DNA from: Chrysophaeum taylorii | Taxonomy: Eukaryota > Sar > Pelagophyceae > Pelagomonadales > Pelagomonadaceae | NCBI GenBank assembly: GCA_029834535.1 | Contig: JAQMWT010000165.1 | Span: 1 to 64,000 of the forward strand | Reading direction: 5' to 3' | DNA: 64,000 nt | In this document: in pieces, positions 26,401 through 58,100 of the stretch | How the letters are laid out: the number at the start of each line of letters is the position of its first letter | Position numbering within the stretch: the stretch's first letter is position 1 | Translations under genes and position numbers: made by a program | The notes under the pieces: generated by a model | The model's input: only the letters and a program-made list of their open reading frames with translations | Database searches by the model: none | What the model was told of the DNA's origin: nothing

Positions 26401-28083
26401 ACAAGCCCTTGCCAAAGAATATCATATGTTGTTCGCGTTCCTTCTCCTTTTTCTGGCACCATCTGCCCTTTGAAGTGGGTCCATCGCACAAAGTATGAAT
26501 CTGGCCGCTTCAAATCGCACACTGCTCATCTAGTTGTCCGCGGTTACACCCAGGTTCACGGCATTGCTTACCACGACACGTACCGTCCTGTAGATGTCAT
26601 CTCTGCTTTCATACAAGCCCCTGTCTGGCGTTGCTGTTCACGACTGGGATTTGCAGAAGTTGGATGTAAGCTCCGCTTTTATCCAAGCTCCCATTGACGA
26701 AGACATCTATGTCTGGCCACCCGAAGGTTATGCTCCTCGCCAACCCACCGATGGTTTCAAAATCATTTACACGCACCGTCGCTCTTGGTATGGTTGCAAA
26801 CAAGCTTGTCGTAATTGGTGGCTTTATTTGGCAGGCTTTCTCGTCAATGACTGTGGCTTCGTCCGCGGATCTGGTGGCACTTGCCGTTACAAGCTCGTGC
26901 TTAATTCTACCGTTGTCCTGCGTCTCGTTCTTGTCGTTGATGATCTTCTTGTGGCGCACTCTCGTTCTTGCCTTGGTCATTACCAAGCCTTCTTCCTCCG
27001 TTTCCGAACCTTCACTGATGTCAACGAGCTTGATCTGACCACTTACGTTGGTCTCCGCATTACGCGTGCTCGCGCACAACCAGACTTGACTCCCGCTCCC
27101 AAAGTTCTTCCTCTTTCTGCGGCTGCTTCTCCTGCACCTGACTCCCCTGCTCACGTCTTCATGGCACGCATCCCTTTTCGTCGTATTGTTGGCTGTGTTT
27201 TATTTATCTCCATCATGACTCGCCCTGATATCACTTGGTCCGTCAATCAGTGTGCGCGTTTTTCACACAATCCTGGTAAACCCCACTGGCACGCTTTATC
27301 CCACACTCTGCGTTATCTCAACGGTTCTCAGGCTCTTGCCCTTGTTCTTGGTCGCGATTCTACCCTTCGTCTCTGTGGTTATTCCGACTCCAGCTGGACC
27401 GACGACCCTGATGACCGCCACTCCACTACTGACTTTTGTTTTCTCCTTGCTGGCTCTATGATATCCTACTGCTCACGCTCGCAGTACCTCCTCGCCCGCT
27501 CCTCTTTTGAAGCTCAATTGCTCGCTCTTTACGCCGCTACTGCTGAGCTCTCTTGGCTTCTCAAACTTTTTGATGACTTTGCTCTCCCTCGTCACACGGT
27601 ACCAATGTATGTCGATAACAGAACCACCGTCACCCAAGTCCGTCTCCAATGTCTCTCGCGGCGCACCAGCCATATTGATATTCGTTTTACAGCACCGCCG
27701 AATATCATCGCAACCACATCATTGATCTCCAACACATTCCCCACCTTGACAACCTTAGTAATATCTTCACCCGCAGTACGGAAGCTCCTTCCTTCCTCCG
27801 GCTTCGTGCTCGTTACCTCACCTCGTGACTTCGCCCGATATCTCTTGTCTCTTTCTGCCACAATGCCTCTCCTGACGTCTGCCTTCACGCTTCTCCTCTG
27901 TAAGCGTCTCACTTACCCCTTTTTCCTTCTTCCTTTTCTTTCTTTTCCAGCACCTGTGTGAGAACCTCACTTACCCCTTTTTTCCCTCTCTTTCTTTTCC
28001 AGCACCTGTGTGAGGAAGCTATGACACTTACCCCTGCACCACGTCCCCATTATAGTTCTCACATCCCCATTTCAGTTCTCACA
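23423..28083 (+). mobile_element. Ty1/copia retrotransposon with very short LTRs (fossil)
   Basis: A complete-ended copia element. The 5' LTR is 23423-23502 and the 3' LTR 28009-28083; both start TGTGAGGAAGC and end in CA. The element is bounded by the direct repeat GCGTG (23418-23422 and 28084-28088). Right after the 5' LTR lies TGGTACCAGGTGC, a plausible primer-binding site of the initiator-Met type. A Cys/His zinc-knuckle-like segment is near 24330. The copia reverse transcriptase/RNase H part is in the plus frame 26594-27961 (for example F-I-Q-A-P-I-D-E-D-I-Y-V-W, V-V-D-D-L-L-V, and the D-P-D-D-R-H-S-T-T region). The two LTRs are nearly alike, so insertion is probably fairly recent, yet the coding part is broken in several places. 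A related inverted copy lies at 55160-59947. Confidence 0.8.
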
Positions 28084-42663: not shown

Positions 42664-45600
42664 CTAGGAAGTTGGCGCGTTCGGTACACTGTAGTGTTCT
42701 TGACGTGTCCGCACATATTCGTAGCTGACGTCGCTCGAGAATGCGAAGATTTTCATTCGGGCATCTCCCGGGTTGGCAATTTGTTTTTTTGCGCTCATGC
42801 ACGCATCTTCCGACAGCATAATCACGTAGCACCCACCTGCCTGGACTGCGATTGATGACGCAGCTCGCGTTCTAGCACCACCGCCAGCACCAGAGTAAAG
42901 ATTGCACCTGAAGTCGTCGTGACGTTTACGGCAATTCCATGGCTGTTACCAACCTCACGAAGCACACAATCTTGAATAATGGACAAGCAAGCAGAGGCGC
43001 AAGCACACACCATGCAAGGACACACACAATAGAATATGTTTCATATGCGCGAACTCTGGCATCGACCCCACGAAAGTACGCGCCGCAGGCCACAAAACCA
43101 GTGGCGCCGTCGATGACGACGGCACCGTCTTGCATGCACAGCGCGTTCGCTGCGCGTTTCGCGTCATCGTTGTCGGAATACTTTTCGATGTGCGGTTTGT
43201 GTGTTTTGCTGAAGTCATAGATGGTCGGAAAAACCCCATACTTCGTGTACGTCTGTGCCCGCGATTGTTCCGCGATTGTTCCTGCACCGCAGTGTCTTGG
43301 CTTTCTGCGAGAAGCTCGCCCGTGTCGCAAACGATGAAAGTAGCGCCATGTGCGGGCTCGCCTTCGCCGACACCATCTGTTGCAACTCGACGAGCGACCT
43401 TTATGGTTGCTTTTATGATTCCTGCCCAGATATCACGACGATTCTCATCAACGCGAAGCTGAGGTGGAATCTCGGCCTGACGCATGAACTCGGACGCTTC
43501 TCGCGTATACTTGATGTCCAGCGACTCATAGTCCTCCCACACAACAGAGCCGCAGCCGTCGGGACCACATTTCAGCAGAATGGCCTGTCCGACCCTGTCG
43601 TTATGAATGTCCGTCATCATCGAACGCAAACCAGAAAAAAATGCTCCAACGAAGCGATCGTCTCGATATTTCTTATCGATGGTTTTGAACGCAGCACCAA
43701 TCTTGCGTGTTTGGAGGAGCTCATCGTTCGTTGGCGTATCTTGAGCGAACTTCATATAGAATCCATAATTGAAAGCCCACACCTGGACGTCGCGTACGTT
43801 GTTACGCCAAGCGATTATCCATCGGTCTTCACACTCTGCAGACTTATCAAAAAGCTGCTCACAGGCATCGTACGATGAACAAGCGTTCAGAATCACACAG
43901 TTTGGCCGAGCTGTGATTTTTCTTAGGGAGCTTGCCCGGACCCCCAATTCTCGGTCGAGAAGTCGACATTCGCAAGTATCGTGCGTGACAATGTGCACAA
44001 CTTCCACAGGGCCTGCTCGCTTCTGTCGTAACCGATCTTCCAACTTGGCTTCAAATTGATGGACATTTTGGCCTACGCAGAGATGTATTGACACAAACGA
44101 AGCACTCTGAACGCCCCGCACGCAGGTGAGTCCCTCGAGGATCCCCTCGCGATCTCTTGTGAAAGAAAATCCTGGAGTTTGTACCAGTGTGAAAAGCGAA
44201 GACTGGCTCGCAATATTCGCGCACCGACCACTTATCGATAGCACGCTGTATTTTGAGCGCGTCATGTCGCTTGATACCGATTTCCGCCAAAAAGGTGCAC
44301 CATTCCTTATCGTCGCAATAACACTGCCGGGACTCCCGCAGATCGTCGATCGAGCGAATGTTGTCTTCGTACAATTTTCCCGCAAACACTGGCGCGCTTT
44401 TCTCGGATATGTCAGCACCATCACAAGATGCTAGCCACGTTATCAATTCTAGTTGCATGATTTCATCTTTCAAGCTTGAAACATCGAGTCTTTCGGAAGA
44501 ACCACGACCATCCCTAACACCCAAATGTTCAGACGGCTTTCGGTCGGCAACATGTCCGCAAAAATGGCACCAGGGCGAGTTTCAACTTTTTTCTTAATCT
44601 TGTACTCAAGATCCCCGGCATAAAACTTGTCGACAACCTCGCGCAGCGCATCAAGGATCATATCGTGAGTTGTACTCACCATATCGTCGTCGAAGACGAC
44701 CTGGATCTCCGTGGTGCTTACCTCAGAGAGCGCGAGCGTCCCATCATCAAAACTGAGATACACTGCCTTTCGAAAGAGCTCATCACAATCTGGCATTTTG
44801 CTGCTGCATTTTGGAACGAGCGACGCGACGAGGCGACTGAAGAGGGCATTTGGAAGATAAGCGAAGTTTATGGCTTCTGCTGTACCCGAATTCTCAGAGA
44901 GTGGCAGCCCGTATTTAAAGATGCTCGGAACAAGGTACTTGCGTTTTTTTGGGGTTATTTCACTACGAGGCGCAGCGCCTCCATGCGACCTCCAGGACCA
45001 TCACCCGCACTTGCGCTGGAGTAATGTTGTCTCCCAGGATGTTGTCGTCGACATGGCATTCGCTGTCAGGCCAAAGATGGTCAAGGAGGCGCTGGTCTAG
45101 AATGCCCTTGCGAGTGAGATCGTACCACAAAACCTCCCCGACGCCAGCGTCGTACGTGTCAGGCCCACCAAGAGACGCCGCCATATCGCGCCTCATTTTG
45201 TGCCACTCGAAGTTGCGAATCACGGCAGTGAACATGTCAATAATCCACTGTGGTTCCAAGATGACAATGTTCTCGGCCAAAGCACCGTGCGTCGAGCCAA
45301 AGTGGGTGATAACACCGAGTTCGTCGAAAAGCTTGAGCATAGCATAGACTTCGTCATTGCCGAGTGGCTCTTGACCCTTCTTAGCGTAGCACTTTCGAAG
45401 AAGGTCGCGAACGGCATTAATTCCAGCGAAGAATAGATCTTCGTCAGCACAGGCCCTCTGGAGCTCGTCGCACGTCTCGAGCCAAATAAGTGGCACGGGC
45501 TCGTGAATATAGCGGTCAGTATCCTGACAGATCGCATCTTCGATCGCTGTTCGAAGCTCTCCAAAAACTGGATTACCACTTTCCATGACTTTGTTGTCGA

Positions 45601-48600
45601 CAGCATAGAACGCGAGGCCTTTCTCACTAGGGCGCACAATCGTGCTATTCAAGCTTGAAATTCCGGCAATGACGCTGTCTACTTCGTGCGAAATTTTTGT
45701 TCGCGCATCGTCGGAGATGGCGTCACAGTGCGTACCAACCAAAAACACTGGTGCGCCGCGTGCGTGAATCGCAATCGAATTGAGCCAAAACGCGAGCTGT
45801 TCGCGCGCAATCTTCCCAACCTCATCATTTGGTGACGACCCGTCGACCCAGTCAACCATGTTAAAGACTGCAAGAAACACACCCTTTCGAGATAGAAACT
45901 TGTTGTGCACGACGTGAAAGGCTTCTTGCCTGAGATAGCAGTGTCATTCATTCATTCATTCATTCATTCATTCATTCGGGGTGAGTCAGACAAGCTTACA
46001 CAATATTGCTAGATGGACGACACAATGGGAAACAATGCTATGTGAGGACACGATAAATTCGCTGGCGCTTACCCGCCGTAATCCCACACGCTAATACGAA
46101 GCTCGCGCTCATTCTTGGACTTGTCCAAAATCTCACTCTCATCATAGCGGTCACCCTTCAACTTAGCAGTCCAAGACCCACGAAATGTGAGACGGGCTGT
46201 GGTTTCTGTGCTTAGTTCTTCTTCTGAACTGCCATCACCGCGGGGCTCAAAGTTTAAAGAGACCACGTCTTCGTCCTTAAGGGAAATCTCTTGTTTCTTG
46301 GTTTCGGTGGACTCTATTTGACTTTCTTGCTTTGTTGTCAGATCACGCCTTTCAGCAACAACCGAGGTTGAGCTCCGCCCTGTGGTCCCTTGAATTTTCA
46401 CGCCCGAGGCTCCCGGAGCTTCATCCGAACTTGGCCGTCCAGCGTGCGAGTCGTAACTCAAGTGGCCCGCGGCAAGAGCCGAAACCCCTTCCGTTCCCAC
46501 CTCACTGAGAGTTCGCCAAACCGTACGTGTTATCGCAACATCACTTTTTTCGATTCCTTGGTCGCGCAGCGCCGAAACATCCGACCTCTCGGCCCCGCGG
46601 GTGCTACGTTCGTGCTCATCGAACTTCTCACCTTTGAGTCGTTTAAATAGGGACGTCTTCCCCACACGCCCCTGTCCAACAACCATAAGGCGTGCGCGCC
46701 GCCACGGCACGCTGGCTCGATCAAGGGCTTGACAAAGAAATTTCCGATGAAACTCGCGTCTTGCCTTTTCGCAGAGCTGATCGAAGTTCTCGCCCGGCTC
46801 CCAGACACGTATCGTCTGGTCAGAGGACGAGCTCACCAACAAAGGCGTGCCACCGCTCATCTTACAAGTCACCAAACCCAAGACTGGAGCATTGTGGGCA
46901 GAAAGTACGCAAAGTAGCAGGGCATCACTAGCAGTCCAAACGCGCACTGTTCCGTCTCCAGAACCGCTTGCCAGCAGCATGAGCCCGTTGCCTGTCGAGA
47001 AAGCAGCTATGCAAAACACGCTGGCCGTATGCCCCTCGAGTTTGTGTATTTGGTGGGGGGCTTTGGTGGGGTTCCAGATACGAACCGTGCTGTCGTCTGA
47101 ACAACTCGCCAGCCGCGGGCCATCACTCGCAACGAATGCCACCACGCTCCACACCTTACCCTCGTGACCCTCGAGCACGCGGATTTGGCGGGCTTCGGTA
47201 GTCGCGTCCCGCACGCGCACAGTCCCGTCGGAGGAGCAACTCGCGAGGCAAATGTTTTCGTCGCTCAACTTCAACGCCACCACACTCAACACCGAACCTT
47301 CTTGGTCCTCGAGTTTGCGGATTTGCTGGCCCGCAACTGGGTCCCACACGTTGATTGTCCCGTCGGAAGAGCAACTCGCAAGGCACGTGGCATCCTTCAT
47401 CTCGAAAGCCGTCACACAGTTCACCTCGTCCTCGTGGCCGTCCAGTATGCGGAGTTGCCGACATTCGACCGGGTCCCACACGTGCACTGTGCAGTCGTTA
47501 GAGCAGCTTGCCAGCAGCAGCCGCGTGCCGTCGCTCGTTTTGAACACCACCACGCCGCGCACCGAACTCTGGTGCCCCTCGAGCTTGAGTATTTCGCGGC
47601 CCACTTTCGGATCCCATACGCGCACCGTTCCGTCAAGAGAGCAGCTCGCGAGCCGTGGCTCGCTTTCGCGCGTCTCAAACCCAGCGACACCACACACACC
47701 CCCGCCGTGGCCCTCGAGCACGCATGTGAGCTTGAAAGGTGGTGTCGCCCGAGCCGTCTGTTCCGCGTCGCGTGCCAATCGCGAAAGGGCCATCATCGTG
47801 GCCCCGTGCCCAGCAGCTTCCAGCGTACGCTGCCAGAGCTCTTCGGCGAGCACGGCGCACCCAAAAACTCGCACGCGGTTTTGCGAGAGGAACAAAGCCT
47901 GGTGCAAAAGTGAAGCCTCCCCCCCTGGAACCTTGGTCGAGTCGACGACGAGGTCGGCCATCTGGCCCGCCTCGACTCGCAACGTCACGAAACGCAGCGA
48001 GCACAACAGCGCCAATGCGACATGTTGGAGTTTCGCCGCGACAAGATGTGTGACAGCCCATCGCAAAGCATAATCAACCGGAGCCAAGAGCTCGTGATCA
48101 TCGTCACCAATACCCGTCAAACTTGCACGAATAACCGCCGCTGCGTGCGCGTCGCTCTCGTTGTTTAGGTTCCTCGGTCCATCGAGTTCACGAACGAGCG
48201 TGGCCAAGCACGCAGCCGCGGCACGGCGGTGAGAAGTCACATAGTCGATGAAGTACGGATCCACGTCACTGCGGTTTTCGAACGGAAACTCACCCATTAA
48301 CCAGCCAGCGAGGGACTCGTTTAAGACGCGGATGCACGCGTCGTTGCGCGCTGGAAAGAGCTGCGACAGCATCCAAACGATGTCCTCGCACCTGGAGACG
48401 CCACTCAAACCCGGGATGTCTTTTATGCGCAGTGGTTCAGAAGCGGCGAGGATGGCTCCGAGGACTTTTCGGCAGTCGATGGAAAACCCACCGGGGAAGA
48501 CGCGAGTGAATTCGGCGAGGTACGTGCCGGCGAGACCATCGGGGATTTCCTCGATATCAGCGTGTGGCTCGTCTTCGAGCCGTTTTCGGAGCCAGTAGAG

Positions 48601-49938
48601 ATACAAGAAGAGACCCTCCGCCTTGGCGGCAGCAGTGGTGATGGTGGCTTCGAGGCGTTCGGGATCGACAACCGGAGCGAGGATAGCTCGGAGAAACCGG
48701 CGGACGTCGACGTCGCATTCCTTGGCGTTCTCCTCGGAGTCAAGGAATTTAGGTCGAAGCGTGGCCAATTTGGTTTGCACGGTGAGCTCTGGCCGAGACG
48801 TGACGAGCACCGCGACCCAGGGCGGGAGCTTGGGGAATTCACGCGCGATGAGATCGAGGAGGTGGTTCTTGGTCGCGTGCTCGGCCTCGTCGAGCGCGTC
48901 AATCACGATGAGCAGGCGACCGCCCGCGGGACGTTCGATGCTGGCGAGCGGCTCGAGGGTCAGGCAGTCGACCAGCTGCACGATATCGTTCAGGTCGCAA
49001 CTTCCGGCCCGGAGCACCTCCTCCACGTTTTTGCGGTACTCTGGAAGCACTTGTGCGATTTGGTACGCGAGCGACTTGATCATGCGGCACGGGTCTCGCT
49101 TGCCGGCATTGTTGTATCGGATCAGGTGCACAGCGATAAGAACGTCTTCTCCAAGCAGCGAATACAGTTGGGCGACGATGGCCGTCTTGCCGAAGCCCGG
49201 TCCGGCGAGCAACACGCAGCATCGAGGGCCGTTGGGGTTTCGAACCCAGGAAATGAGGAAATCGAGAATCCAGTCGCGCGTACCAGGGACGAATTGCTTG
49301 ATGTGCCACTCGAGTTCGCCTTTGAACGAGAGTGGGCGCAGCTGCGACTCGAGCGACGGAGGTTCGTTCTCCTTCACCACTGGGACTCTCTCGGGGTAAT
49401 AGTCGCCTCGGAACACTTCGAAGTGCGCGTCCGGCGGTACCGGGTTCGCGCGCGTGCCGCAGATGTCTTCCGATGCTTTGATAGTGACGCAATTCGCCCT
49501 GACAGCGATCGAGGAGGCCGCTCGGGTGCGCGATCCTGTGCCGTAGGGTGTCATGCTATCGCGGTTCGCAAAACCCCCGCAGCAGACCTGGCCCGATTTT
49601 CCGTCGATGACGATCGCGTTGTGGCAGGCGCAGAGGGTTTGCAACACCCGCTTTTCAACGTCGCTGTTGGTGCAGTTCTGGATGAGAATCCAGCCATCGC
49701 GGCGGTCGAGGTCCTTGGGGAAGAATCCATACTTGGAGTGAACGCTCGACTCGGTTTCGGCAAACGAGAGGTCCGGATCAGGAGCGAGGAGTTCGGTCGA
49801 GTTGCCGACGATGAACAAAAAGCCGTGCGCGGGCTGGTTCTCGCCGAGGCCCTCGGTCGCGATCATGCGCGCGGCATCGAGGGTCGCCGCGACGACCTTG
49901 TGTTCGAGCCTGACACGATATTCTTTGTTATCCTCCAA
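42664..49938 (-). CDS. giant DisA_N-NACHT-WD40-Roc-COR-SAM-CHAT-DisA_N protein (about 2,250 aa, at least 7 exons)
   Basis: Exons by reading frame: 49938-46073, 45929-44990, 44937-44519, 44474-44232, 44155-43288, 43252-43080, 42907-42664; introns of 143, 52, 44, 76, 35 and 172 bp, all GT-AG, keep one frame. Domains: DisA_N-like (about 10-165; G-T-G-S-R-T-R-A-A); NACHT ATPase (P-loop G-P-G-F-G-K-T 246-252, Walker B L-I-V-I-D-A-L-D-E 343-351, T-S-R-P-E 380-384); about seven WD40 repeats (about 738-1045); Roc GTPase (G-Q-G-R-V-G-K-T-S near 1086, W-D-Y-G-G-Q-E near 1286, V-G-T-H-C-D near 1353) with a charged insertion of ~170 residues between the first two motifs; COR (about 1400-1740); SAM-like helices (about 1745-1820); CHAT/caspase-like domain (H-I-V-T-H near 1880, V-I-L-N-A-C near 1910); second DisA_N-like domain (about 2064-2230; D-G-A-V-V-I-D, G-A-R-T-R-A-A). 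Probable cytosolic sensor-switch-protease. Position 49938 is TTG with a stop just upstream in frame, so a 5' exon with the true ATG is probably missing. Domain calls from NACHT to COR are strong; SAM and CHAT are moderate; DisA_N is moderate to good because two copies agree. Confidence 0.85.
43080..43252 (-). other. exon 6 of the giant gene: core of the second DisA_N-like domain
   Basis: Encodes Y-T-K-Y-G-V-F-P through Q-D-G-A-V-V-I-D-G-A-T-G to C-G-A. The 172 bp intron (43079-42908) interrupts between the D-G-A strand and the R-T-R-A-A segment, which resumes in exon 7 as C-N-L-Y-S-G-A-G-G-G-A-R-T-R. The splice phase (2) restores the frame exactly. Confidence 0.7.
45930..46072 (-). other. intron 1 of the giant gene, carrying an (ATGA)n microsatellite
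   Basis: GTAAGC donor and CTATCTCAG acceptor. It splits the Roc G3 motif: exon 1 ends W-D-Y-G-(G) and exon 2 resumes G-Q-E-A-F-H. About nine ATGA units lie near the acceptor (plus-strand 45945-45977). Confidence 0.85.
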
Positions 49939-50225
49939 AAGACGAAGAGGTCCGTTGTACGTCCGTTAGTATGGGTGGGGTTTTTAAATCGCGGCGGCGC
50001 GATGAATTTCGTGCTGCACTGTACGAGACGGGGGATCCGACCGCGCGAAAGAAAGCGAAGATTGCATTTCTCGTAGCGCAACAATCTAAGATTGTTGCGT
50101 ATACACTTCACCGAAAACAACAGGGTCGTCGTCGTCGTCGCGTGCACGAAAGGGCTCGGTGTCCAGAAAGTTCTCAAGATACCGTGATACGCTAGGTTTC
50201 TAAAGTAAATAGAATGAATCTGCAA
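49939..50225 (-). promoter_or_regulatory. 5' flank of the giant gene, possible first exon
   Basis: The exon reading D-N-K-E-Y-R-V-R is preceded by TCTTTTGGAG, a plausible splice acceptor. The only nearby minus-strand ATG followed by a GT donor begins near 50067 (ATGCAATCTTCG...). This is inference; no promoter motif was recognised. Confidence 0.25.
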
Positions 50226-52399: not shown

Positions 52400-55159
52400 T
52401 TTCTCATCTATTAGGGTTTGGGTTTGGGAATACTGCGAATAATGACGTCATCCATCCATCCATCCATCCAGTCGCGTCGGTCGTCTTAGCGCTGCGAGCT
52501 GGGGCCGAGGACCTACCTCGAACTGCCGAGTGTGTGGATTGGTGGTGGTGCTACTCGACTAACTACCAGGCCTTGGACATCGTCGATCGAGGCCTACCCC
52601 AGGAGTTCTTGGCGGTCCGAGTCAAAAAAACGCTCGGTCGATATATCAAGACCTCGATCCGCGACATCATCATCTTTGGCGAGCTCGACACTCAGATCAA
52701 GGATGTCATGCTCCTCGAGACCATCAACGCCTGGACCGAGGGCTGCCCGCACACCTTGGAGAATGGTGAGGCGATACGTGGAAGGACGGCGGCGAGCTGC
52801 TTTTTTTGCAAGGCGAACGAACCAGACGGACGAGCAGCAGCTCGAGTAAGACGGTCTACCCCGGCTCGAAACGTCACGCGAACCGCTGCTGCTGCGAAAG
52901 CCAATTTTTATAGGCGCCAACTACCACGGCAGCATCTTCCCCTCGAGCGAGCGAGCAACATATCGAGCATTTATCTCCGGCGTCGAGGTCGTTTGCTGTA
53001 GGGATGGCGTGCTTGGTGATTTCGATCCGTGCCCCCCGGCGTAGCATCATCCGGGTCGACGAAAACGCCGGTGAAGCTCCGGCGCAAGGATGAGCAGAGC
53101 GATGGAGTGTTGGGCGAGCTCTCGCCCTCACTCTCGCTCTCGCTCTCACGCTCTCGCTCTCGCTCTCGCCCTCACTCTCGCTCTCACTCTCGCTCTCACG
53201 CTCTCGCCCTCACTCTCGCTCTCACTCTCGCTCTCGCTCTCACGCTCTCGCTCTCACTCTCGCCCTCACTCTCACTCTCGCGGCGGCGCTCGAGACTGCT
53301 CGCCGTTCACTTGCAGATTGGACGACCGACGCGAGGGCTCAGCACAAAGCTGGGCTCGACTTGCGCCAAATCGAGGAGGCTCTGGTCAAGTCGGCCCTCG
53401 AGGTCACGCCCGTCTGATCGTCGAATATCAGATCTCCACACCGAATGGGCGCGTGGCATCGCGAAAAATCACGAGCTTTCCTCTCACCTTGCTTGGCTCT
53501 CGTAGATCGAACATGATGTCGGGGTGGATCGAGGGCTACATAAAGAGCTTCGGCCCAAGTTCTAAACTTGGACGACGAACGCAAATATCGGCAAGGCTGG
53601 CAGCATTGGAAGCGTGGCCTTCCTTACCGACACGCTGGAGCTGACTTTTTTGACCTTAAAAATCTGAGAAGCTCCCGTACGAGCCCGAGGTGCCGTCGGA
53701 GCAGCGACGGTGGTTGTCGGAAATTGGTACATCGACCGATCTACGTCGTTCTCTCGAGGCGACCGGCGCGACCTGCAGCTCGGACGCGACAGCAGATGCC
53801 GACGTCCCACAAAAAAAAATTTGATCATCCGCCAACGCGCGGATGTGCTGACGGGTAGTGCGAATAGCTCTACTACTGGAATCGGGGCGATGCAGTCAAC
53901 ACCCTGTTTGGACTTACGGGGAACGTCGTTTTCTTACGACTGGATTTGCATTATGTCTACGAGGAGGATTACGCTGCCGCCGCGAACCTCGCCCTCGAAA
54001 AACGGATCCAAGGCGGCCAACTCCTAGCTTTGTTGTCCTGGACGACGACCTTAAACCTCTCGTCGACGATCCCGAGCGCCCGCGAGCTGAGCCCATATGG
54101 ACGAAGAAGACGACGATTTGCGACGTCCCGACCCAACGGCCCCAATACGAGCTGTGGACGGACTAGCCGAGGTCGCGTCTCGGACTCACCTCCCCAAAGT
54201 CGTCGGCACCCTCCGCCCAGCCTACGCACTGTTGAGGCCGCAACGCGTCGCGTATATCATCATATAATGCCCAGAACGCCGCCTTCTCCGATGCACAATA
54301 AAGGACGGACGATTAGCAGTGCTGAAATTGGAGATATGCAGTCCGGACCGGACCACCGCAGAGTGTCTCCCTTGTGCGTGCGACATTGGAGCCGCTGCTG
54401 CGGCGGCACGGACGCGGTGCGCTGGCTCCTCGAGACAGAGCTGCCGGAGCTCGTAAGGCAGCGTGCCCCACCCAGGAGGCCGGCCGCCCCTGGTCGCGGC
54501 CCTCGCGCGACGACTCGACTCGACTCGACTCGACTCGACTCGTCGTGCGGCTCGTCCTGGCGCTGCCGGAGTCGGCGCGGGACTGGTGGATGCCAGCGCT
54601 GGGCGACGAGCTGCGGCGGCGCCTCGGACAGACAACGAGGCCCCCGTGTTAACGGCCTGGGCGTGCTCTTCCAGCCGGACCAGGCCGACTCACCACACAA
54701 CGTGTTGTTGCGGTCGGCGACCGGATCTCAACCGCACTTCTCTGCTACCTACTTTTGAGTGGCGGCGACCGCCTGAGGCAGCAATTGACTCGGTGCGGTC
54801 ATAATTTGACACCACCAATGTGGCCAGTAAGGGCTAACGTTTCCGGGTCAGCGTAGAAGTGGTGGTGGTCGATGGTGGCTTTCCGGCCTCCGCCACGTAT
54901 TCCGTGCGGCCGAGACGAGCTGGCTCGATGGCGGCCAGCCCGACGTCCCCGCCGATATATCGTTGAGATATACGGCTCGGTTGTTTTATTTTATTTGGGG
55001 GATGTTTTGTTTTATTGGCCTCGGTGTCGGTTACACTCTCCTGACGCTTCACGACACAAGTATCGGCCGAAGACGCTGTCGAGCTGTTGACACGAAACGA
55101 CGCGCATGTTGGAGACCAAGATCCCGGCGTTGTAATCGAATCCGCCCTCTACACCCCAA
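52400..55159 (+). other. decayed, repeat-rich region with coding-like remnants
   Basis: Contains an ATTAGGGTTTGGGTTTGGG stretch (52412, telomere-like but single), a (CATC)n run (52450-52470), a (CTCTCR)n array (53120-53285) and a (GACTC)n run (54508-54542). Plus-strand coding-like segments appear at 52540-52760, 53400-53600, 53930-54260 and 54380-54650 but never continue in one frame and match nothing I recognise firmly. They could be exons of a degraded gene. The Ser/Leu/Arg frames across the CT-rich array are artefacts. Confidence 0.3.
53118..53286. repeat. (CTCTCG/CTCACT)n low-complexity array
   Basis: Irregular alternation of CTCTCG, CTCACT and CTCACG hexamers. Confidence 0.9.
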
Positions 55160-58100
55160 TTCGTGACGAGGTGAGGTAACGAGCACGAAGCCGGAGGAAG
55201 GGAGGAGCTTCCGTACGACGGGTGAAGATATCGCGAAGGTTGTCAAGGCGGGGATTGTGTTGGAGATCAATGATGTGGTTGCGATGATATTCGGCGGTGC
55301 TGTAAAAGCGAATATCAATATGGCGGGTGCGCCGCGTGAGACATTGGAGACGGACTTGGGTGACGGTAGTGCTATTATCGACATACATTGGTACCGTGTG
55401 ACGAGGGAGATCAAAGTCATCAAAAAGTTGGAGAAGCCAAGAGAGCTCAGCAGTAGCGGCGTAAAGAGCGAGCAATTCAGCTTCAAAAGAGGAGCGGGCG
55501 AGGAGGTACTGCGAGCGTGAGCAGTAGGCTATCATAGAGCCAGCAAGGAGAAAACAAAAGCCAGTAGTAGAGTGGCGGTCATCAGGGTCGTCGGCCCAGC
55601 TGGAGTCGGAATAACCACAGAGACGAAGGGTCGAAGCGCGACCAAGAACAAGGGCAAGATCTTGAGTACCATGGAGATAACGGAGGGTATGAGATAAGGC
55701 GCGCCAGTGGGGTTTACCAGGATTGTCAGTAAAAGGCGCACACGGATTGACGGTCCAAGTGATATCAGGGCGAGGCATAACAGGAAGAAACAAGACACGA
55801 CGGAGAATACGACGAAAAGGGATGCGTGCCATGAAGACGTGAGCAGGGGAGCCAGGTGCAGGAGAAGCAGCCGCAGAAAGAGGAAGAACCACTGGGAGCG
55901 GGAGTAAATTCTGGTTTACTGTTGATGAAGCGATGTTCGGTGAGGATTTCACGGATAGCATGGGATTGGTAGATAGCGAGCTTGCGACGTGCGCGAGCAC
56001 GCGTAAGGCGGAGACCAACGGAAGTGGGAAGGCTTTGAAAAACGCAAAAAGGGAAGCTTGGTAATGGCCAATGCAAGAACGGGGGTGCGCCACAAGAAGA
56101 TCATCAACGACGAGAACAAGGCGCTGAACGACAGTAGACTTAAGCATGAGTGTGTAGCTGCAAGTGTCACCAGATCCGCGGACGAAGCCACAGTCATTGA
56201 CGAGAAAGCGTGCAAAATAAAGCCACCAAGAGCGACGGAGCGTGTAAATGATTTTGAAACCATCGGTGGGTTGGCGAGGAGCATAACCTTCGGGTGGCCA
56301 GACATAGATGTCTTCGTCAATGGGAGCTTGGATAAAAGCGGAGTTGACATCCAACTTATGCAAATCCCAGTCATGAACAGCGACAAAGGCTAGAAAGAAA
56401 CGGATCGTGACGATGTTAGCAACCGGCGAGTAGGTGTCATGATAATCAATGCCGTGAACCTGGGTGTAACCGCGGACAACGAGGCGAGCCTTGTACGATT
56501 TGAAGCGGCCAGAGTCATACTTCTTGCGAAGGATCCACTTGAGGGTACAAATGTTGCCAGAAAACGTCGAAGGAAGGCGAACAACATCCCAGCAACCAAG
56601 CTGACCAAGGGAGCGATACTCTTTGGCGATGGCTTGCAACCAGCCAGGACGCTCAGGATTGGTCTGAGCTAAAGCTTCAAGTAAATGGGTGGAAGTAACG
56701 GTAGTTTCGTCAATGTATGAATACTGAGAGGTTTCTTCGGAAGCAGAGTAATAAACATGTGCATGGGGATCAACAAGGGTGTTAGCTAAACAAAGGGGAA
56801 GGAAGACATAATGAACTAACAAACGAAAGCTAACATAAGAGACATACAAAGAGTTACAGGAGGAAACAGAAGCGACAGAGGAAACAGAATCGACATTGTG
56901 ACAGGATGAAACAGAATCGACATTGCGTTGTTGACAAACGCCAGTATGAAAGTTTGTTGGTTGTTGTAATGCGCTTTGGTCGACTTTGCGCGGTCGGCTC
57001 CGTTTGGCTCGACTTTGTTTTGCACTTTCCTCAGGAGGTTTTGGGCTCTTTGGTTTTGTCGGCTCTGGTTTGCTCGACTTTGTTTTGCACTTTCTGTTGT
57101 TTTCTCTCTTTCGCACTTTCTGTTGTTTTCTCTCTTTGGTGCGTCGGAGTTTATGAGCTCGTAGAATGGTCGGTTCACGTGATGGGGTGATCAGTCCCAG
57201 TGAAACCGGCGCATTCTCATCAAACACATGGGGCAAGGGGGCAACAGCGGACAAGGGGGCAACAGCGGAAGAACAGGTGACAATCGGGCAACAGCAAGAA
57301 CAGGTGACAATGGGGCAACAATAGACGAGAGCTTGGAAGCGTGATTCGAGAAAGTCAGAACAACGTTGAAGTTCCTTCGGTGGTTGACATTGCAAAAAAA
57401 AATCGGGTAATTGAAACTGTCAGCAAAATCGAGGTCTGAAGAACAATAGCGACAAGAGTGCCTGGGATGACGTGCGTTAGACGATTGTGGCCACTGAGAA
57501 TCGCAGCGGGGCAAAGATAGCGGAAACACAGGCTGGTATATATGATGGCAGTGTACCAGACGTCTGATGAGAACGGTGCCTTTGGGCAGATAGGGTGCAT
57601 CGTGCATGGTGACCAGGTTATGACGATGGTCGGAGTCGACAGAAGCAAAAACAGGCGTAAACAGGGTTGATGCGAACGTTGGGTGTTTGGTTGTTGTGGC
57701 ACGAGCAAGTTACCATGGGCACGACCGCGTCCTGTACGCGAAAATTGAAGACTTCGGACGCGCCAGCGGTGTAAGGAACGAACACGGGTAGACCAGGCTG
57801 CTGTATGCCAGCCTGCTGGGGCAGATAAGAAAGTGGCCCGTTTTCGCATTCGCAAGAACGAAGTTGCCATATGGGCCAACGTTGGAGGAGCAAGCGGCGA
57901 GCTTGGCTCGTCATGCTCGAATAGACTGCGGTAGAAGTTGGCGACAGTGGCAAAACAGTTGTGGCACGTAAGAACGTTGCAGATAGCGTCGCAGTGGCAC
58001 GTAAGAACATTGCAGATAGCGTCGCGGGTGCTGAGCACGGAATTCACTGCGAGAGCAATAACGGATTTTAAAGGTCAGAAAAACGGCGAAAAGGCGAGAG

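Follow-up and report, generated by a model that had tools for sequence, protein, structure and literature searches.

Organization of the locus

We analysed a 64,000-nucleotide stretch of the genome of the pelagophyte Chrysophaeum taylorii (contig JAQMWT010000165.1; C165:1-64000, hereafter the window), taken from an assembly of 70.8 Mb in 697 contigs, which are given C-numbers throughout. A locus encoded on the minus strand at 42.6-50.1 kb joins regions resembling diadenylate cyclase (DAC, or DisA_N), NACHT, WD40, Roc-COR and CHAT domains. Our best reading is a receptor gene that arose by fusion and has decayed in its second half. Its first half comprises the following features:

46072-49965, minus strand: open frame of 1,298 amino acids (aa) without a stop, covering the DAC-like, NACHT and WD40 domains and Roc part 1
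49350-49914, minus strand: N-terminal DAC/DisA_N-like domain, with HNA replacing DGA and RTR replacing RHR (predicted fold and motif tally)
48793-49284, minus strand: NPHP3_N/NACHT P-loop ATPase domain (Pfam profiles)
46795-47721, minus strand: WD40 propeller of 7 repeats (Pfam WD40, E 1.7e-52, 7 stretches)
46073-46701, minus strand: first part of the Roc GTPase, which includes the P-loop and runs to WDYGG (tblastn with a C324 paralog, E 8e-38)

When this stretch was put through 200 simple letter shuffles, frames reached at most 288 aa, against 1,298 aa in the real sequence. NPHP3_N (E 7.6e-24; E 7.5e-23 in a second scan, 85 bits and E 2.7e-22 in a third) and NACHT (E 4.8e-9) both lie above the Pfam cut-off. 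Combining a NACHT-type P-loop ATPase with C-terminal superstructure repeats (WD40), the frame resembles the NLR-like members of the STAND proteins (nucleotide oligomerization domain-like receptors and signal transduction ATPases with numerous domains, respectively), which fits the likeness to oligomerising danger sensors proposed in the original prediction for this DNA. Roc is not among the best 25 of 44 Pfam rows for the window and its first part is assigned by the paralog match; the paralogs score 35.8 and 30.6 bits for Roc against a cut-off of 27. Between them, Pfam profiles and C324 paralog matches uphold the NACHT and WD40 labels and, less firmly, the Roc-COR label. The N-terminal slot of the frame holds a folded domain, and the same slot is MLKL_N-like or PNP_UDP in paralogs. 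The window frame lacks an upstream in-frame start Met; of the 12 other fuller copies six were compared, and all six have one.

The deposited gene model for the locus is 944 aa long; it begins at an inner Met, exits the open frame inside WD40 and ends soon after. The gene set behind it was built with RNA-seq evidence, and the annotated contigs are the long-read set, according to the genome report, which also lists Illumina reads (SRR22085760) and RNA-seq (SRR22085759) for the alga (PMC10366177). The splice out of the open WD40 frame looks like a prediction artefact.

The second half carries the features below, paralog comparisons being with C324:

45930-46072, minus strand: Roc intron of 143 nt with canonical ends (GTAAGC...CTCAG), splitting Roc at WDYGG; both C324 paralogs have an intron at this position
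44987-45929, minus strand: Roc part 2 and COR-A in one frame (59% identity to paralog, E 6e-115)
44941-44986, minus strand: frame change (46 nt in the window, 41 residues in the first C324 paralog)
44614-44940, minus strand: COR-B part (38% identity to paralog)
44552-44613, minus strand: frame change (62 nt in the window, 30 residues in the first C324 paralog)
44189-44551, minus strand: middle region, called SAM-like in the original prediction (33% identity to paralog)
44152-44188, minus strand: frame change (37 nt in the window, 16 residues in the first C324 paralog)
43531-44151, minus strand: CHAT-like region with candidate His (VVHIVTHD) and Cys (NCVILNACSS) (33% identity to paralog)
43267-43470, minus strand: second DAC-like domain, first piece, in the frame of the CHAT-like part (match to N-terminal copy)
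43261-43282, minus strand: 11-bp tandem duplication at the fourth frame change, in the second DAC-like domain
43073-43264, minus strand: second DAC-like domain, middle piece, with DGA motif (E 2.6e-4)
42908-43025, minus strand: possible, unconfirmed intron with GT-AG ends (GTGTGT...TTCAG)
42667-42907, minus strand: second DAC-like domain, last piece, with RTR motif, to the stop codon (motif reading)

The domain order laid out by the original prediction is found on the minus strand: the 1,298-aa ORF (open reading frame), then, after one intron, Roc part 2, COR, the middle region, the CHAT-like region and the second DAC-like domain. Window COR-A (26.4 bits, cut-off 35.3) and COR-B (13.9 bits, cut-off 27) score under their Pfam cut-offs. 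The second DAC-like domain is 42% identical to the N-terminal one at 43267-43425 (E 4.5e-7). No SAM profile matches the middle region at 44189-44551 in Pfam, leaving that label without profile support.

The CHAT label is tentative. Its candidate His and Cys columns are invariant in 3/3 aligned sequences and could form a dyad as in CHAT proteases; Pfam finds no match to the region in the window or the paralogs, and a search of solved structures finds none either. Its structure model (pLDDT, the predicted local distance difference test score, of 42) is too poor for structure search. Aligned by hhalign with four CHAT members of the same genome the region gives E 0.015 but a probability of 3%, and with the C25 member alone E 0.49 and a probability of 0.1%, so that motifs and a borderline profile match weakly suggest a CHAT-like domain. 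In Pfam, NCBIfam and PADLOC, none of the window parts is directly labelled as DAC, CHAT or a defence component; the DAC-like domain has just a weak DacZ match (E 0.024).

A predicted diadenylate cyclase fold with altered motifs

The AlphaFold2 model of the N-terminal domain (pLDDT 77, predicted template modelling score 0.78) matches DisA and CdaA in both Foldseek and VIA-align, giving it a predicted DAC fold. Six of the seven matches in a profile search of solved structures are diadenylate cyclases, and the paralog on C418 scores above the Pfam DAC cut-off (31 bits versus 27). The DisA_N-like assignment, originally a guess made without a profile match, is borne out by these results. The C. taylorii domains share with DisA, CdaA, CdaM and DacZ (PF02457) the predicted fold and a strand-DGA-strand plus GxRxxAA pattern; they differ in being fused to NACHT, WD40, LRR, ANK or kinase domains in a eukaryotic host, and in their catalytic motifs.

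Our motif tally covers 18 DAC-like domains, of which 13 are from this genome, one is the window's split second domain and four are in P0007, P0009 and P0010 (P0008 was left out, as it repeats C418). DGA begins with D in 15/18 and is complete in 6/18, and RHR is complete in 1/18. All 18 have the leading R of RHR, an invariant column in both alignments, although the search pattern itself requires this residue; the RSA motif of the second P0010 domain was read by eye. Only the C418 domain has both motifs complete, and one or the other is altered in the remaining 17, for example in C396 (DGA, RTK) and C454 (DNA, RTR). Given the widespread loss of DGA and RHR residues, we think that most copies bind nucleotide or perform altered chemistry rather than make cyclic di-AMP (c-di-AMP). 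The window N-terminal copy, with HNA for DGA and RTR for RHR, is unlikely to perform canonical c-di-AMP synthesis, and we rejected it as an orthodox synthase. Of the nucleotide-messenger module originally proposed, the fold is retained and the canonical residues are not.

The C418 frame (C418:55028-55930; P0008) is 301 aa long, Pfam finds only DAC in it, and it is the sole tallied protein with complete DGA and RHR; judged by its motifs, it is the best candidate for a working DAC enzyme. A further Pfam DAC match at C301:23500-23850 (1.8e-37) was rejected as an algal gene, lying beside a folP-like frame on a bacterial-looking contig. We take the two frames to be a folP-cdaA-like pair of bacterial type, and the contig is probably a bacterial contaminant of the algal assembly.

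An expanded family with exchangeable modules

The C. taylorii genome contains 21 matches to the DAC-like domain, fragments and the window's own copies included. The domain precedes a NACHT-WD40 core in the window, in two C454 frames, in C396 and in C599 (with one frame change). Purifying selection on it is indicated by ratios of replacement to silent change (dN/dS) of 0.26-0.42 in eight DAC-like pairs; three NACHT pairs give 0.38-0.51. Beyond the genome, P0007, a complete transcript ORF from MMETSP, has DAC-like, NPHP3_N and WD40 domains in the same order as the window, and P0010, from EukProt, has two DAC-like domains in tandem. P0003 carries a DAC-like domain together with Pfam accessions that we take to be LRR families. 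A protein search with the window region returned seven matches (six Chrysophaeum, one MMETSP), and one with profile A1 returned two among the 7,997 best candidates scored, EukProt adding one. No DAC-like relative was confirmed in a prokaryote genome collection or in viral contigs, in scans that used 1, 1 and 6 exact patterns and that distant relatives would escape.

The same core takes other N-terminal modules. MLKL_N-like regions precede NACHT-WD40 in C359 and C44 (22.6-25.7 bits, below the cut-off of 27), and a second C359 NACHT frame, broken further on, has an MLKL_N-like match of 31.8 bits. A 1,855-aa frame at C28:6997-10842 has PNP_UDP_1 (35.9 bits, over cut-off), NACHT and WD40, the layout of some fungal NLRs. 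Three further NPHP3_N matches, on C569, C161 and C391, lie outside this slot comparison. At the other end, the Roc-COR-CHAT-like cassette finishes in a PNP-like region in two C324 paralogs and in a DAC-like one in the window and C275; one of the two C324 copies scores 28.5 bits for PNP, over cut-off, in a genome scan, and the C324 PNP profile gives no PNP match among solved structures, only a weak ABC-transporter match. Judged by the occupants of these slots, DAC and PNP replace each other at both ends.

On C309 (612866-621500 and beyond), a 3,406-aa frame runs from a DAC-like domain through a region of no known type to MLKL_N-like (23.8 bits in one scan; 29.5, over cut-off, in another), ankyrin and protein kinase domains; TPR and NACHT matches under cut-off follow the kinase, with ankyrin again beyond them.

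Frame changes in the second half

From 44987 to 43531 both C324 paralogs stay in a single frame throughout (ORFs of 1,277 and 1,236 aa), and the window changes frame three times. At all three places the window sequence is shorter than the codons of the first C324 paralog, which leaves no room for an intron. The fourth change falls on the 11-bp duplication. The C275 copy has a matching-length stretch there (a gappy alignment, lengths counted by eye), from which we judge the duplication to be inherited rather than a sequencing fault. The original prediction had called six GT-AG introns and one product of 2,251 codons. One of the six, the Roc intron, is confirmed by both C324 paralogs, and the last gap (43025-42908) may be an intron; the other four are better read as indels, and the six-intron structure was rejected. 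The locus does not yield one open product, since it contains four frame changes that neither the paralogs nor the first DAC copy needs, and the window gene in its present form is unlikely to encode one functional chain.

The domain order nevertheless points to a former single gene, because Roc lies in the frame of WD40, the Roc intron is conserved, COR, middle and CHAT-like regions share one frame in both C324 paralogs, and in the window a single frame (ORF 42955-44430) runs through the CHAT-like part into the second DAC-like domain.

C275:29284-31979 is a second Roc-COR-CHAT-DAC copy, indel-rich relative to the window (264 gap columns in 1,709; 74-87% identity in four stretches, with very many gaps). 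A TGAA tandem repeat lies within the window Roc intron, and the C275 copy has a TGAA repeat too.

Comparison with known systems

Fungal NLR-like proteins combine a NACHT core with WD40, ANK or TPR repeats and interchangeable N-terminal modules including PNP_UDP, HeLo and RelA_SpoT, and N-terminal swaps on similar nucleotide-binding oligomerization domains are documented (PMC4986451). The C. taylorii family resembles them in its NACHT-WD40 core and swapped N-terminal modules, down to PNP-NACHT-WD40 on C28, and differs in its DAC-like module: DAC is not among the 12 N-terminal classes given there, and 'DisA' is absent from the main text (PMC4986451).

A study of NTP-dependent conflict systems of multicellular bacteria describes STAND ATPases with caspase-like peptidases and PNPase, RelA and GGDEF modules, and suggests that inactive cyclase versions bind nucleotide or act as dominant negatives (PMC7159879). 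The likeness lies in a STAND ATPase joined to a candidate caspase-like peptidase and putative nucleotide-signalling modules; the difference is that those systems are bacterial and multi-gene, and the main text nowhere uses DisA, DAC or diadenylate as a whole word (PMC7159879). DS-2, a bacterial defence candidate, encodes a phospholipase, a cGAS-like enzyme and a diadenylate cyclase and is apparently a CBASS (cyclic-oligonucleotide-based antiphage signalling system) with DAC (PMC13092281). It thus places DAC in a proposed immune system, but with three separate bacterial genes, and the part of the report available describes no NACHT-WD40 fusion (PMC13092281).

The window gene and its paralogs share with Roco proteins the Roc P-loop and an apparent order COR-A/COR-B, and differ from them in that CHAT-like and then PNP-like or DAC-like parts follow and in COR scores below the Pfam cut-offs. 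Many Roco proteins carry a kinase after Roc-COR.

Proposed mechanism and alternatives

Our preferred explanation, which we consider probable though well short of secure, is that the window holds a former single fused gene of an expanded, module-shuffling NLR-like (STAND) family with a DAC-derived N-terminal slot, and that its second half has been broken by indels. The explanation builds on the order of the domains, the DAC fold predicted for the N-terminal one, the trading of slots with PNP and MLKL_N-like modules, the signs of purifying selection and the broken frames. The window copy would have arisen when a DAC-NACHT-WD40 receptor was fused to a Roc-COR-CHAT-like-DAC cassette, and at most its first half would still make protein. 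DAC enzymes are known to need two facing subunits. In intact members, the WD40 propeller may recognise a ligand, upon which the NACHT ATPase would exchange nucleotide and oligomerise, packing together the DAC-like domains, which would occupy the N-terminal signalling or effector slot and act as a nucleotide-dependent signalling module. From the exchange of DAC with PNP, the effector swaps of fungal NLRs (PMC4986451) and the inactive cyclases of bacterial conflict systems (PMC7159879), we infer an output role for the DAC-like domain, in which nucleotide binding or altered chemistry is likelier than c-di-AMP synthesis. A candidate new signalling or recognition system, as the original prediction had it, is retained for the family and not for the window copy.

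Several observations weigh against this explanation. None of 282 Foldseek matches to the N-terminal domain reaches E 0.001 (best 1.4e-3, template modelling score about 0.4), and Pfam DAC (PF02457) does not match it at E up to 10. MLKL_N stays below the cut-off of 27 in C44 (22.6), the 1,529-aa C359 frame (24.4-25.7) and C324 (22.0-24.6), and PNP in C324 lies just under cut-off in the protein scan (E 1.7e-5 and 1.5e-4). The four aligned C-terminal segments contain no stop in 753 codons, a surprising state for an old pseudogene and one that allows for indels introduced in assembly, and two frame changes lie near homopolymers. The deposited 944-aa model backs neither a long gene nor a clean short one. 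Ligand sensing, oligomerisation and output in intact members are drawn from the architecture, the sensing role by analogy with NLRs.

It is possible, if doubtful, that the locus is two units today: a working DAC-NACHT-WD40 gene, perhaps with part of Roc, ending near 46.07 kb or inside WD40, followed by a dead Roc-COR-CHAT-DAC remnant. The deposited model stops inside WD40, every frame change lies downstream of Roc part 1 and dN/dS is 0.34-0.42 for window pairs in the first half; against this stand the missing start Met and the artefactual look of the deposited model. Alternatively, long-read errors could have broken an intact gene with two introns and a single DAC-NACHT-WD40-Roc-COR-CHAT-DAC product. 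We consider this unlikely: the stop-free segments, the homopolymers, the long-read origin of the annotated contigs and an excess of silent over replacement change that is large in the C-terminal pieces would all suit it, but frames of 1,394, 1,396, 1,414, 1,529 and 3,406 aa run unbroken elsewhere, so indel errors in this assembly seem rare, and neither the 11-bp duplication, which is no homopolymer error and has its counterpart in C275, nor the absent start Met agrees with it.

In a further reading, NACHT oligomerisation would turn on the DAC-like domain as an active synthase of cyclic dinucleotides. This reading is compatible with decay of the window copy, and the DAC fold, the complete motifs of C418 and the swapping with PNP, another nucleotide-acting module, speak for it; with both motifs complete in a single tallied domain, and HNA and RTR in the window N-terminal copy, we regard it as quite improbable. 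GT and AG dinucleotides can link frames and the Roc intron is real, but the originally predicted working gene, of six introns and 2,251 codons, is very hard to sustain: three of the introns would fall on paralog coding sequence without spare length and a fourth on a tandem duplication.

Implications for NLR-type receptors

NLR-type receptors are commonly grouped by the output module ahead of their NACHT or NB-ARC engine; a DAC-fold module in this slot would be a new NLR output class. Fungal NLRs are likewise classed by N-terminal module (PMC4986451). We found no earlier description in the open-licence literature searched, the main review of DAC architectures being outside its reach. If our preferred explanation holds, the DAC fold, known as a bacterial and archaeal c-di-AMP synthase, would be placed in eukaryotic receptors as an expanded family under purifying selection, and the intact paralogs on C396, C418 and C454 make DAC-type nucleotide production or sensing in eukaryotes directly testable.

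A speculative extension, unlikely as it stands, is that pelagophyte NLR-type receptors use a DAC-derived output in which NACHT oligomerisation packs the domains face to face. The resulting nucleotide signal, perhaps a cyclic dinucleotide or else a new product, would lead to self/non-self recognition or to cell death. Such receptors would form a eukaryotic system of immune messengers founded on the DAC fold and running parallel to cGAS-STING and TIR signalling, in which PNP and MLKL-type modules could take the place of the DAC-derived output.

Other features

The CHAT and MLKL_N matches of C25 and C521 have equal scores and almost the same coordinates; the two are probably haplotypes of one region. 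The window also contains two RVT_2 reverse transcriptase frames, at 26594-27958 on the plus strand and 55152-57419 on the minus strand, which we take to be copia-type elements.

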